Position numbers and translations under genes: made by a program. Positions 119 to 55,036 of a stretch of DNA of 58,301 bases are shown piece after piece. Position 1 is the stretch's first letter, and the number at the start of each line of letters is the position of its first letter. The notes under the pieces were generated by a model. The model was not told where the DNA came from and made no database searches. It worked only from the letters and a program-made list of their open reading frames with translations. Source of the stretch: Nitrospira sp. (lineage in GTDB: Bacteria; Nitrospirota; Nitrospiria; Nitrospirales; Nitrospiraceae); assembly GCA_023248215.1 (NCBI GenBank), contig JAHFEW010000019.1:1-58301 (forward strand), written 5' to 3'.

Positions 119-991
119 ATGGTCACCGCTCCTCCGTATGATTCCCGCATGGCACGAGGGCTCATTCTCGATGAGCTATTCGACTTATCCTTGTACAAGT
201 CGCTGAGAGAGGTATTGAACGACGGCAATTCCCGCAAGACTTTGGATGAATTGGCCACAGTCGAGGTCCGGCATCTGGCGTTCTGGCAGAGTTTTTTCCA
301 GCTCAAGCTTGAGCGCCTGGATCTTGGGCGACGCATCAAACTGCAAATCATGTTGCTCGCCTGCCGGCTGTTCGACACGACGGCCATCCACCTCGTTCTC
401 GAAGCGATCGAAGTTCATGGCGTCCGCAAGTATCTGACCTTGTGGAAGAGCTATCAATCCCAGCCGCTCGGTCAGGCTCTCTGGGACATTTTGATGGACG
501 AGTTTAAGCACGAAGACGTGCTGGTCACCCAATTGACCGAGCGAAAAATCAACGCGAAAAAGATCCGAAACATTTTCTTGGGATTGAACGACGGACTGGT
601 CGAGATTCTGGGGGCGGTCAGCGGATTCTTCGGGGCCTTCGGGAGCGCCAGCGCGGTCCTGGTTGCCGCCGCGACCACGGCGGTGGCCGGGGCCATCTCC
701 ATGGGGGCCGGCGCATTTCTCGCGCTGAATTCTGAACAGGAAGTGACGGTGACGGAACGCGCAAGGAAACTGTTTCTGGAAGAGAACACCGCAGACAGCG
801 AGGTTGGAGAACCACCCCTGAGGTCGGCCTTGGTCGTGGGATCCGCTTATATTGCCGGAGCGCTCGTTCCGGTTTTACCGGTGTTGTTCGGAGCCACGGA
901 CGCGCTGGTATCGATCCTCACCGCTGGCCTCATGGTGATTCTGGTTTCGACCGTACTTTCATTCCTCGCCAGCATGGACATCCGACGATGA
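119..991 (+). CDS. VIT1/CCC1-family iron/manganese transporter with rubrerythrin-like N-terminal domain, truncated by in-frame TGA
   Basis: The N-terminal part (residues 10-145) is helical and carries two ExxH motifs (E49/H52 and E128/H131), as in the ferritin-like domain of bacterial membrane-bound VIT1 relatives. From about residue 150 follow the VIT1 signature (LGLNDGLVEILGAVSGFFG) and hydrophobic helices. The family moves Fe2+ or Mn2+ across the membrane. The ATG is preceded by GAGGT at good spacing. The frame stops at TGA (989-991) after four of the expected five transmembrane helices, while the same frame continues downstream with a perfect last helix. The annotated product is therefore probably an incomplete copy of a 321-codon gene. 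Family assignment is firm; functionality is uncertain. Confidence 0.85.
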   Translation: MVTAPPYDSRMARGLILDELFDLSLYKSLREVLNDGNSRKTLDELATVEVRHLAFWQSFFQLKLERLDLGRRIKLQIMLLACRLFDTTAIHLVLEAIEVHGVRKYLTLWKSYQSQPLGQALWDILMDEFKHEDVLVTQLTERKINAKKIRNIFLGLNDGLVEILGAVSGFFGAFGSASAVLVAAATTAVAGAISMGAGAFLALNSEQEVTVTERARKLFLEENTADSEVGEPPLRSALVVGSAYIAGALVPVLPVLFGATDALVSILTAGLMVILVSTVLSFLASMDIRR

Positions 992-1084
992 GTCATCCTG
1001 AATGTGGTCATCATCACGGTCGCTGTCGGCGTCAGCTATGGTATCGGCCTGGCCGCCAAACAGCTCTGGGGGATTTCGGTCTAG
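989..1084 (+). pseudogene. In-frame continuation of the VIT1-family gene beyond TGA (last transmembrane helix)
   Basis: Reading on in the same frame past the TGA gives VILNVVIITVAVGVSYG followed by IGLAAKQLWGISV and a TAG. This is a hydrophobic helix with a short cytoplasmic tail, exactly what a VIT1-family protein has at its C-terminus. The codons before the stop are CGA CGA, so a single C-to-T change in a third Arg codon would explain it. Alternatives are a sequencing error or TGA readthrough. No selenocysteine insertion structure is evident. Confidence 0.75.
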
Positions 1085-1206
1085 CAGGATGTTGGAACAT
1101 CCATCCAGCTTTGTTCTCGCATCACTCAGAAACTCACCCTACAGCCCGGAGTACGATGCGCCTCTTCACTCGCTACGGCCGCGCTGGATGGCCTTTGAAC
1201 ATCTTG
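1082..1206. repeat. Intergenic inverted-repeat element abutting a TAG stop codon (copy 1)
   Basis: The left arm (1085-1109) begins CAGGATGTTGGAACATCC. The right arm (1183-1206) is its imperfect inverse and ends GAACATCTTG. About 75 bases lie between them. The arm starts directly after the TAG that ends the VIT1 reading frame. A second copy with the same TAGCAGGATGTTG junction lies near 54.7 kb. It sits between convergent genes, so it could act as a 3' end structure; that role is inferred. Confidence 0.65.
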
Positions 1207-1232
1207 AATGGAATACTGAGGCTCGTCTGGCG

Positions 1233-2867
1233 CTAGCGGACATTGACCATCGGAAGTTCGCGGGAACCTTCGGCCTCCTGCTGAATCCGCTGGCGCTCCG
1301 CTTTCGACTCTTCCAACACACTATGCAATAACTCGTCGCTAAGCTGGGTGAGTTGCGCCGCGGCGTCTTTCATCTCCGCATGCTCAACCGCCCGCGACAG
1401 CACCTCGGCCTTGGTCGCGCCCTTCTTCTGTCCCAAGAACGGCTTGATGATGAGATAGGCCACATCGCGGAAGGGCATATAACGCAGAAATCGACGCAGC
1501 AATTTGAAGGTCTGAATGGGATAGCGGGTGAGCTTATAAATAAACAGCTTCTTCAGCCCTTCCTGCCGCACCGTATTGATGACCGCTCCAGGCAAACAGG
1601 TCGGATCGATCTCTGAACATTTAAAATACTTGTACCAATCCTTGGCGTCGGTGACCAGGCCGCGCTTGATGTATTCCTGCCATAGGGGCGTCCCTCGATA
1701 GACGCAAAGTCGGTTGAACCCGAAGGTATCCAGCGGCAGTTTGGATGCGAAGTCGAACGTCTTCTGCATATCCTCCACAGTTTCATCTGGGTTGCCCACG
1801 GTAAAGAAACCATGGACGATTTCGATCCCGGCCTTCTTCGCATTTCTAACCGCGGTCTCAACCTCTGCAAGCGTCTGCTCCTTTTGGAGGCGATCGAGAA
1901 TCTTCTGGCTTCCGCTCTCGATGCCGAACATCACCGTCCGGCAATGCGCTTTGGCCATGGCGGGGAAGAGGTGCTGCGCGACTGAGTCGACGCGGCCTTC
2001 GATCCCCCATTGAATAGAGAGCTTCGCCTCGATGATGCCTTTGCAAATCGCATCGATCCGCTTCGGCTGCAACAGGAAGTGATCGTCGACGAAGTAGACG
2101 GACCCGTACCCGCTCGCCTCAAGGTATTTGAGCTCATCGACGACGTGCTGCGCACTGCGCGCGCGCCACTTGCCTTCGTTGAAGATCGGGATATCGCAGA
2201 AGACGCAGGGCCATGGGCATCCCCGAGACGTCTGCATGGTCGTAAACCGTTCCATGGACAACACGGCCGGTACATCCAAGGGCATGGATTCGACGAAATC
2301 CAACTCCAAACTTTCCCGGTCTGGGAAGGGCCACTGGTCCAGGTGGCGCTCCATGGTCCGGTTGGGATTATTGATTACCTGGCCGTCTTTCGCCCAGGTC
2401 ACGCCGCCCACCTCCTGGGGGTCGTCGATGCGATCGAGCAAATCCAACAGCAATTGCTCCCCGTCTCCCCGACAGATGAAATCCACTTCCGGACATTGTA
2501 GTTTGACGAGCCCGGCATTGAGACTGGCAAACACCCCGCCGAAGGCCAGCTTCACGTTGCTGTCGGTGGCCCGAATCTGACGGGCAAGAATCTTCGCATA
2601 GGGGTAGCTGGTGGTGCTGAGGAAGCTCAGCCCGACCAGGGTCGGTTTCCGTTGTTTGATTTGTTCGATAATAAAATCGTTGGGCGTCTCCGGGTGGGCC
2701 TGGTCGAACATCACACATTCGTGGCCTGCCCGCTTCAACACGGACGACAAGGACATGATGCCGATAGGCGGAAATCCCATCACCCGAATGCGCCCATTCT
2801 TGGCTCGGGTCTTCGCAGGGAGGGCATAAAACTGGGGGTCACGCACATGTATGAGAAACACGAGCAT
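1233..2867 (-). CDS. B12-binding-domain radical SAM protein
   Basis: A 544-residue protein. The first ~150 residues form a cobalamin-binding-like Rossmann domain (FPPIGIMSLSSVLKRAGHE), including the LVGLSF and LAFGG strands typical of this class. The radical SAM core follows with the CX3CX2C cluster motif C217/C221/C224 (SRGCPWPCVFC), then VYFVDDHF and MFGIESGS segments. Relatives (BchE, HpnP/HpnR and similar) carry out methylation or cyclisation on lipids, tetrapyrroles and other substrates; the substrate here cannot be told. The C-terminus is Glu/Gln-rich and probably helical. The gene converges with the VIT1 gene and stands alone. Class assignment is secure, function unknown. Confidence 0.9.
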   Translation of the reverse strand: MLVFLIHVRDPQFYALPAKTRAKNGRIRVMGFPPIGIMSLSSVLKRAGHECVMFDQAHPETPNDFIIEQIKQRKPTLVGLSFLSTTSYPYAKILARQIRATDSNVKLAFGGVFASLNAGLVKLQCPEVDFICRGDGEQLLLDLLDRIDDPQEVGGVTWAKDGQVINNPNRTMERHLDQWPFPDRESLELDFVESMPLDVPAVLSMERFTTMQTSRGCPWPCVFCDIPIFNEGKWRARSAQHVVDELKYLEASGYGSVYFVDDHFLLQPKRIDAICKGIIEAKLSIQWGIEGRVDSVAQHLFPAMAKAHCRTVMFGIESGSQKILDRLQKEQTLAEVETAVRNAKKAGIEIVHGFFTVGNPDETVEDMQKTFDFASKLPLDTFGFNRLCVYRGTPLWQEYIKRGLVTDAKDWYKYFKCSEIDPTCLPGAVINTVRQEGLKKLFIYKLTRYPIQTFKLLRRFLRYMPFRDVAYLIIKPFLGQKKGATKAEVLSRAVEHAEMKDAAAQLTQLSDELLHSVLEESKAERQRIQQEAEGSRELPMVNVR

Positions 2868-54613: not shown

Positions 54614-54766
54614 GCAGGATGGTCAAAAAGGCCGTCCTCTTCGCTCGTCGTTCGTGAAGCGTCGTTCGTCTCTGAGTGCGCATCGGCTATGGTTCCCAGA
54701 CGAGATACGCTTCACGCTTCACGGCTGTCGAACGCGAAGCTGGCGGATTTTTTCAACATCCTGCTA
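54614..54766. repeat. Intergenic inverted-repeat element abutting a TAG stop codon (copy 2)
   Basis: The left arm (54614-54637) reads GCAGGATGGTCAAAAAGGCC. The right arm (54742-54764) is its imperfect inverse, ending TTCAACATCCTGC. On the minus strand the right arm follows directly on the TAG that ends the 90-residue membrane-protein gene, giving TAGCAGGATGTTG, identical to the junction of copy 1. The interior contains further short repeats of ACGCTTCACG type. Confidence 0.7.
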
Positions 54767-55036
54767 CGGTTCATTGCGGGCGGAGGGGTTGTAGCGCAGA
54801 TACAACGCGATCCCGCCGGCGACGGCAATACCCAGACCCGCCAGGGCGCGGGTGCCGAAACTCAGCGGACCGACGAAGAACTCAACCAAACGCGGCAACG
54901 CCACCGTGGCCATGATGACCAACGCCAGCGAGATCAGATGAATCCGTAGATAGATTGGCTCGCCGGGTTTTCGCATAGATTCAAACAAAGACGAGAGGAG
55001 TGTACGAAGTCCAGCTCCATTATTCCACTGCCCCAC
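54764..55036 (-). CDS. Small membrane protein, two transmembrane helices
   Basis: A 90-residue protein with two hydrophobic segments (IHLISLALVIMATVALPRLVEFFVG, residues ~32-56; TRALAGLGIAVAGGIALYLRY, ~62-82). No family recognised. Its TAG stop is part of the junction with the inverted-repeat element. It follows the dioxygenase gene by 25 bases in the same direction and is likely cotranscribed. Confidence 0.65.
   Translation of the reverse strand: MGQWNNGAGLRTLLSSLFESMRKPGEPIYLRIHLISLALVIMATVALPRLVEFFVGPLSFGTRALAGLGIAVAGGIALYLRYNPSARNEP

Follow-up and report, generated by a model that had tools for sequence, protein, structure and literature searches.

The repeat that follows an iron-transporter-like gene near the start of the window (by which we mean the whole 58,301-nucleotide stretch of Nitrospira sp. 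DNA under study, contig C162 of the 4.69-Mb, 199-contig assembly G000, which is probably a MAG) is one copy of a MITE family, and we consider it likely that this family is driven by an IS5-type transposase and that its hairpins have been retained as 3'-end structures. Indeed, the analysis establishes a family with defined ends, target duplications, empty sites, a candidate partner insertion sequence, enrichment at stop codons and covariation between the two hairpin arms, and the mobile origin of the element is well shown. The features on which the account relies are the following.

119-991, plus strand: VIT-like gene, ended early by TGA 989-991; the frame is open from 992 to TAG 1082-1084
1081-1084, plus strand: CTAG target site, with whose TAG the VIT-like (iron-transporter-like) frame originally ended; the ortholog in the relative G001 (L366) has the same CTAG end without the element
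1085-1206, plus strand: MITE hairpin, comprising left end and long stem-loop (covariance-model match G000:C162:1082-1206, E 1.8e-23; alignment and fold)
1207-1232, plus strand: decayed right part of this copy, with approximate right boundary; the right inverted repeat is not recognisable, and the flank aligns with the empty site again from about the stop of the convergent gene
1233-1236, minus strand: CTAG that includes the stop (TAG) of the convergent radical-SAM-like gene, either a second target copy or merely the gene's own stop
1233-2867, minus strand: radical-SAM-like gene, convergent to the VIT-like gene
54615-54763, minus strand: second copy, of another loop subfamily, with its hairpin immediately 3' of a stop codon (nhmmer match)
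54764-54766, minus strand: TAG stop of a 90-aa ORF (54764-55036), adjoining the second copy

The two window copies and the spread of the family

The initial annotation had described an inverted repeat at 1082-1206 together with its inverse arm, and sequence, fold and covariance model all recover it as described, the left arm running from 1085 and the inverse arm up to about 1206, with a predicted folding energy of −40.5 kcal/mol (z −2.7). It had also placed the repeat directly at the TAG of the iron-transporter frame, which holds in part: TAG 1082-1084 does close the frame starting at 119, but an in-frame TGA (989-991) already ends the gene as written, 93 nt before this point. This TGA truncates the VIT-like frame 31 codons ahead of the ancestral TAG at 1082, whereas the G001 ortholog reads through, and it reflects either a true pseudogene or an assembly error.

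The junction TAGCAGGATGTTG, said to recur at 54.75 kb after another gene, was found again at 54754-54766 on the minus strand, where the TAG at 54764-54766 ends the 90-aa ORF; the frequency in the window of the 10-mer of the junction by itself is not above chance. When this second site (54615-54766) is compared with locus L416 of G001 (from 5520), the stop codon is the same and the MITE copies belong to different loop subfamilies. In fact, at several orthologous places, this one among them, the loop sequences differ at the same stop between the two species, and the comparison thus points to sites that would have been re-occupied or to loops that would have been replaced.

The suggestion of an element family was borne out by the genome-wide search, which gives 40 blastn matches and at least 111 covariance-model matches (E≤0.01). 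All 30 relatives searched carry matches, with 36–94 in each of 17 of the 18 congeners; a complete genome of the same genus (G004) has only 2 but carries another DUF772 (IS5-type) transposase in 14 near-identical copies, and forms a natural contrast to the other congeners. In a phylum-wide draw, strong matches came from the organism's own family and from one other genome, and exact left-arm matches in named genomes were all from Nitrospira or Nitrospirota, except for a few contigs labelled Nitrospinota. The literature searched held no description of this repeat family, and Rfam yielded no element match above the gathering score in five loci. One dehydrogenase-like gene (L205 9582-11352, G000:C158) lies between two oppositely oriented copies and is a possible composite mobile unit, similar brackets being seen in several other loci. 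Paired ends around ORFs in the first loci were also considered as autonomous elements and rejected on reading, as the enclosed ORFs had the appearance of normal genes with a MITE on each side.

Anatomy of the unit, empty sites and a candidate partner insertion sequence

The hairpin part of the element is an imperfect palindrome of ~127 bp, at whose second arm the element had been thought to end. This limit proved too short: intact copies continue for ~75 bp, to a right inverted repeat and a duplicated target, so that the intact unit measures ~205 bp and consists of a left end CAGGATGNNGAAAAAG, the long stem-loop, a spacer and a right end (CAGGCTGCGGAAAAACTC on the opposite strand). In the young subfamily the ~75-bp tail is constant, its last bases being CGAGTTTTTCCGCAGCCTG, followed by CTAG. 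Among copies with a right end, the four flanking bases mostly agree at both ends, being CTAG/CTAG in most and CTAA/CTAA or TTAG/TTAG in others; CTAG is palindromic, which leaves the duplications of that class ambiguous, while the CTAA and TTAG pairs are non-palindromic. The matching four-base flanks and the constant tail with its right end therefore define the unit as a ~205-bp MITE, which is small, multi-copy and without a transposase gene. A few copies lie on GTAG or on TGA stops, which are not YTAR and need either later substitutions or a relaxed target.

The inner arm of the stem-loop constitutes a third end-like sequence, in inverted orientation. Although the stem sequence varies, nearly every copy has a G.G mismatch in the stem at position 10 of the left arm, which perhaps prevents the inner arm from acting as a transposon end. 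A long-loop subfamily (copies in L002, L205 and L206) has inner sequence such as CGGCCGGCTCACCGTCTCGCCGGCG and GGCGCTCATTATTCTTCGCGCCGTGGAC in common, its hairpins being well over 200 bp. A fixed short-gap pattern between CAGGATG arms gave zero matches because the loop is longer, and no sigma-70-like promoter was found in the one copy scanned.

Comparison of element flanks between G000 and its relatives revealed sites filled in one genome and empty in another. At the G001 copy L400 the arrangement CTAG-element-CTAG corresponds to a single CTAG in G000, and the G000 copy L030, with CTAG at both ends, corresponds to one TTAG at the same place in G001, which is the stop codon of the upstream gene. 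At the window locus itself, where the right boundary of our copy has decayed, the G001 ortholog ends at the same CTAG stop with the convergent gene within ~15 nt and the hairpin absent. As the ortholog has the stop without the hairpin, the stop preceded the element, and the TAG is native and was used as a target. Of the two roles first proposed, namely that the element targets or supplies 3' ends, targeting thus stands, whereas supply of the stop codon is ruled out by empty sites with the stop already in place.

Analysis of the relatives' IS5-type transposase loci identified insertion sequences of 1322–1325 bp in G001 (two copies), G035 and G031. Their ends, CAGGCTGCGGAAAAAC, are flanked by CTAG or TTAG (TTAG/TTAG around one of them) and are identical to the MITE right end; correspondingly, the right end CTAG-CAGGCTGCGGAAAAACTC is identical to the insertion-sequence ends in L226, L229, L230 and L243. 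The transposase matches NCBIfam NF033581 (IS5 family) with 285 bits, the cut-off being 140. An IS1182-type partner (Pfam DDE_Tnp_1_6) was also considered, but the genome has none and the partner is of IS5 type instead. Insertion sequence and MITE have only their ends in common, not their internal sequence. An intact partner was not found in this assembly, which holds only a relic (C183:32323-32790, 61% identity, three stops), and copies of the family are numerous also in congeners that yielded no close homologue of the insertion sequence. The IS5 of E. coli duplicates Py-T-A-Pu targets, mostly CTAG, CTAA and TTAG (PMC5493358), and the duplicated targets of the element are this same set. From the shared ends and targets we infer that an IS5-family transposase, which some related Nitrospira have intact and this assembly only as a decayed relic, would move the MITE in trans by recognising the ends CAGG(A/C)TGNNGAAAAA and inserting the ~205-bp element into Y-T-A-R, mostly CTAG, with duplication of the four bases.

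Occupancy of stop codons and upkeep of the stem

Copies that land on stop codons would leave the protein unchanged. Since TAG and TAA are stops and genes have no TAR in frame before their end, many of the YTAR sites that can be harmlessly occupied are the last codon of a gene. The association with 3' ends put forward initially was confirmed when copy positions were tabulated against stops: the TAR coincides exactly with the stop codon of an upstream gene in the same orientation in 52 of 137 copies (133 once self-reverse matches are removed), a few rows having TGA stops instead, and in 50 of 109 copies of a replicate set of named Nitrospirota contigs. Genes were called with a simple home-made hexamer caller, and the counts come from the searches together with ~1.0 Mb of sampled stretches, mostly picked around copies. 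As background, stops account for 7.7% of all CTAG site-orientations and 14.8% of the non-coding ones, counts which include sites created by the elements themselves; on this scale, 24 of 52 CTAG copies outside genes are on a stop, against 102 of 688 non-coding CTAG orientations (p 7.5e-8).

A distinct picture emerges for intact and worn copies, the latter defined by the sole criterion of a right end that is not recognisable, which we used as an age proxy. Intact CTAG copies are on a stop in 7 of 27 cases, versus ~15% available (p 0.11), and those lacking a recognisable right end in 17 of 25 (p 2.6e-9). Over all copies the figures are 42/91 without and 10/42 with the right end (p 0.02), and in the replicate 42/78 and 8/31 (p 0.01), the 31 replicate copies with a right end having the stop on the left in 8 and on the right in 7. 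A ratio of 60 left to 2 right among copies lacking the right end was set aside as evidence, because these copies have no defined right boundary. In respect to gene orientation, convergent gaps are enriched (23% versus 13%, p 0.004) and divergent gaps depleted (9% versus 20%, p 0.004). Thus, young insertions land about as available sites predict, on either side, and among worn copies those with the hairpin behind a stop are over-represented.

The arms of diverged copies pair better with their own partner (−33.1 kcal/mol) than with shuffled partners (−23.0±0.7 kcal/mol), a covariation which could stem partly from the existence of several subfamilies or from template-switch correction of quasi-palindromes, not from selection. 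Worn copies adjacent to stops have −34.2, versus −29.7 for other worn copies of similar divergence (p 0.008); the former have stems as strong as those of intact copies, the latter weaker ones. At stop codons the T-run is retained no better than at other sites. A scan for intrinsic terminators (GC-rich stem, short loop, T-run) yielded nothing that qualified on L009, an intact copy, and, in the window copy, one match to a weak partial stem that is not the long hairpin. The classic short-loop intrinsic terminator does not fit, the loop being too long for the standard pattern. Taken together, the data favour selection for a 3' hairpin, with terminator and mRNA protection not told apart. The first suggestion of a terminator or mRNA-stabilising structure hence appears plausible from the retention bias and the kept stems, but draws no support from the short-loop pattern or from T-run upkeep at stops. 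After insertion, the spacer and right end would decay, and hairpins directly 3' of the stop of a co-oriented gene would be preferentially kept with the stem still paired, most likely because the hairpin serves as a 3'-end RNA structure, either as terminator or in mRNA 3' protection.

Competing explanations, related systems and significance

The same observations might arise from a purely selfish MITE, in which target availability and removal from coding sequence alone account for the stop association and the hairpin has no function at 3' ends. That YTAR contains TAR, that intact copies occupy stops near the expected rate and that replicate intact copies lie equally on both sides would all follow from it; however, copies without the right end are strongly biased towards hairpin-at-stop in two data sets, stronger stems are kept in the stop-adjacent worn copies and divergent gaps are depleted, and we regard this reading as unlikely. 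Spread of REP/REPIN-type palindromes by a RAYT (Y1 transposase), with the hairpin and its 5' tetranucleotide guide cut as a single strand, would account for the CTAG ahead of the hairpin foot in many copies, and the genome has five Y1_Tnp genes (L031-L035, IS200-like and RAYT-like). It is very improbable, given that the duplications match at both ends, that the right inverted repeat is identical to IS5-family ends, that empty sites hold one YTAR and that none of the five Y1_Tnp loci has a canonical copy, one divergent copy lying near an IS200-like tnpA; moreover, the foot is mostly CTAG, not the GTAG/GTGG of described REPs (PMC6006769), and the hairpin has 127 nt versus 21–65 nt. Worn copies with copy-specific stems and A-tract/T-tract symmetry directly 3' of stops could also be seen as independent intrinsic terminators that are merely alike, some of them captured as ends by mobile elements, but profile homology through the loop, family-wide sequence identity, the empty sites and duplications found for some copies and the long loop make this the least credible of the explanations.

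The proposed IS5-driven MITE family with retained hairpins resembles several known systems. Insertion sequences of the IS5 family are alike in the NF033581 transposase of the candidate partner and in the 4-bp Py-T-A-Pu duplications (PMC5493358), yet our element carries no gene and has only its ends in common with them. The Correia element and MITEAba12 are likewise short, non-coding and multi-copy, with terminal inverted repeats shared with an insertion sequence and target duplication (PMC10969869, PMC6382973), whereas in the present family the hairpin has 127 bp and contains a third end-like arm internally, and copies frequently land on stops. A repeat named in PMC10969869, a dispersed hairpin for which a terminator role has been proposed, is comparable by description; it is from another phylum, and the loop here is far larger than the standard terminator pattern. 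REP/REPIN sequences with their RAYTs are also high-copy intergenic palindromes, some close behind stops (PMC12306157, PMC6006769), but the element is larger, has DDE-type ends and duplications, does not have the GTAG foot as a rule and is not located beside RAYT genes.

The genus Nitrospira comprises important nitrite oxidisers as well as comammox bacteria, and almost every one of its genomes that was examined has the family in abundance. The results explain in simple terms how transposons whose target contains TAR can sit on stop codons without harm. We tentatively put forward, as a possibility somewhat short of even, that a mobile-element pipeline makes 3' ends across a bacterial family, in which stops are safe landing sites, hairpins may become domesticated copy by copy as mRNA 3'-end structure, and loops are replaced or sites re-occupied over time. 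Young and worn copies, together with filled and empty sites, constitute a comparative system for how selfish hairpins become the 3' ends of genes.
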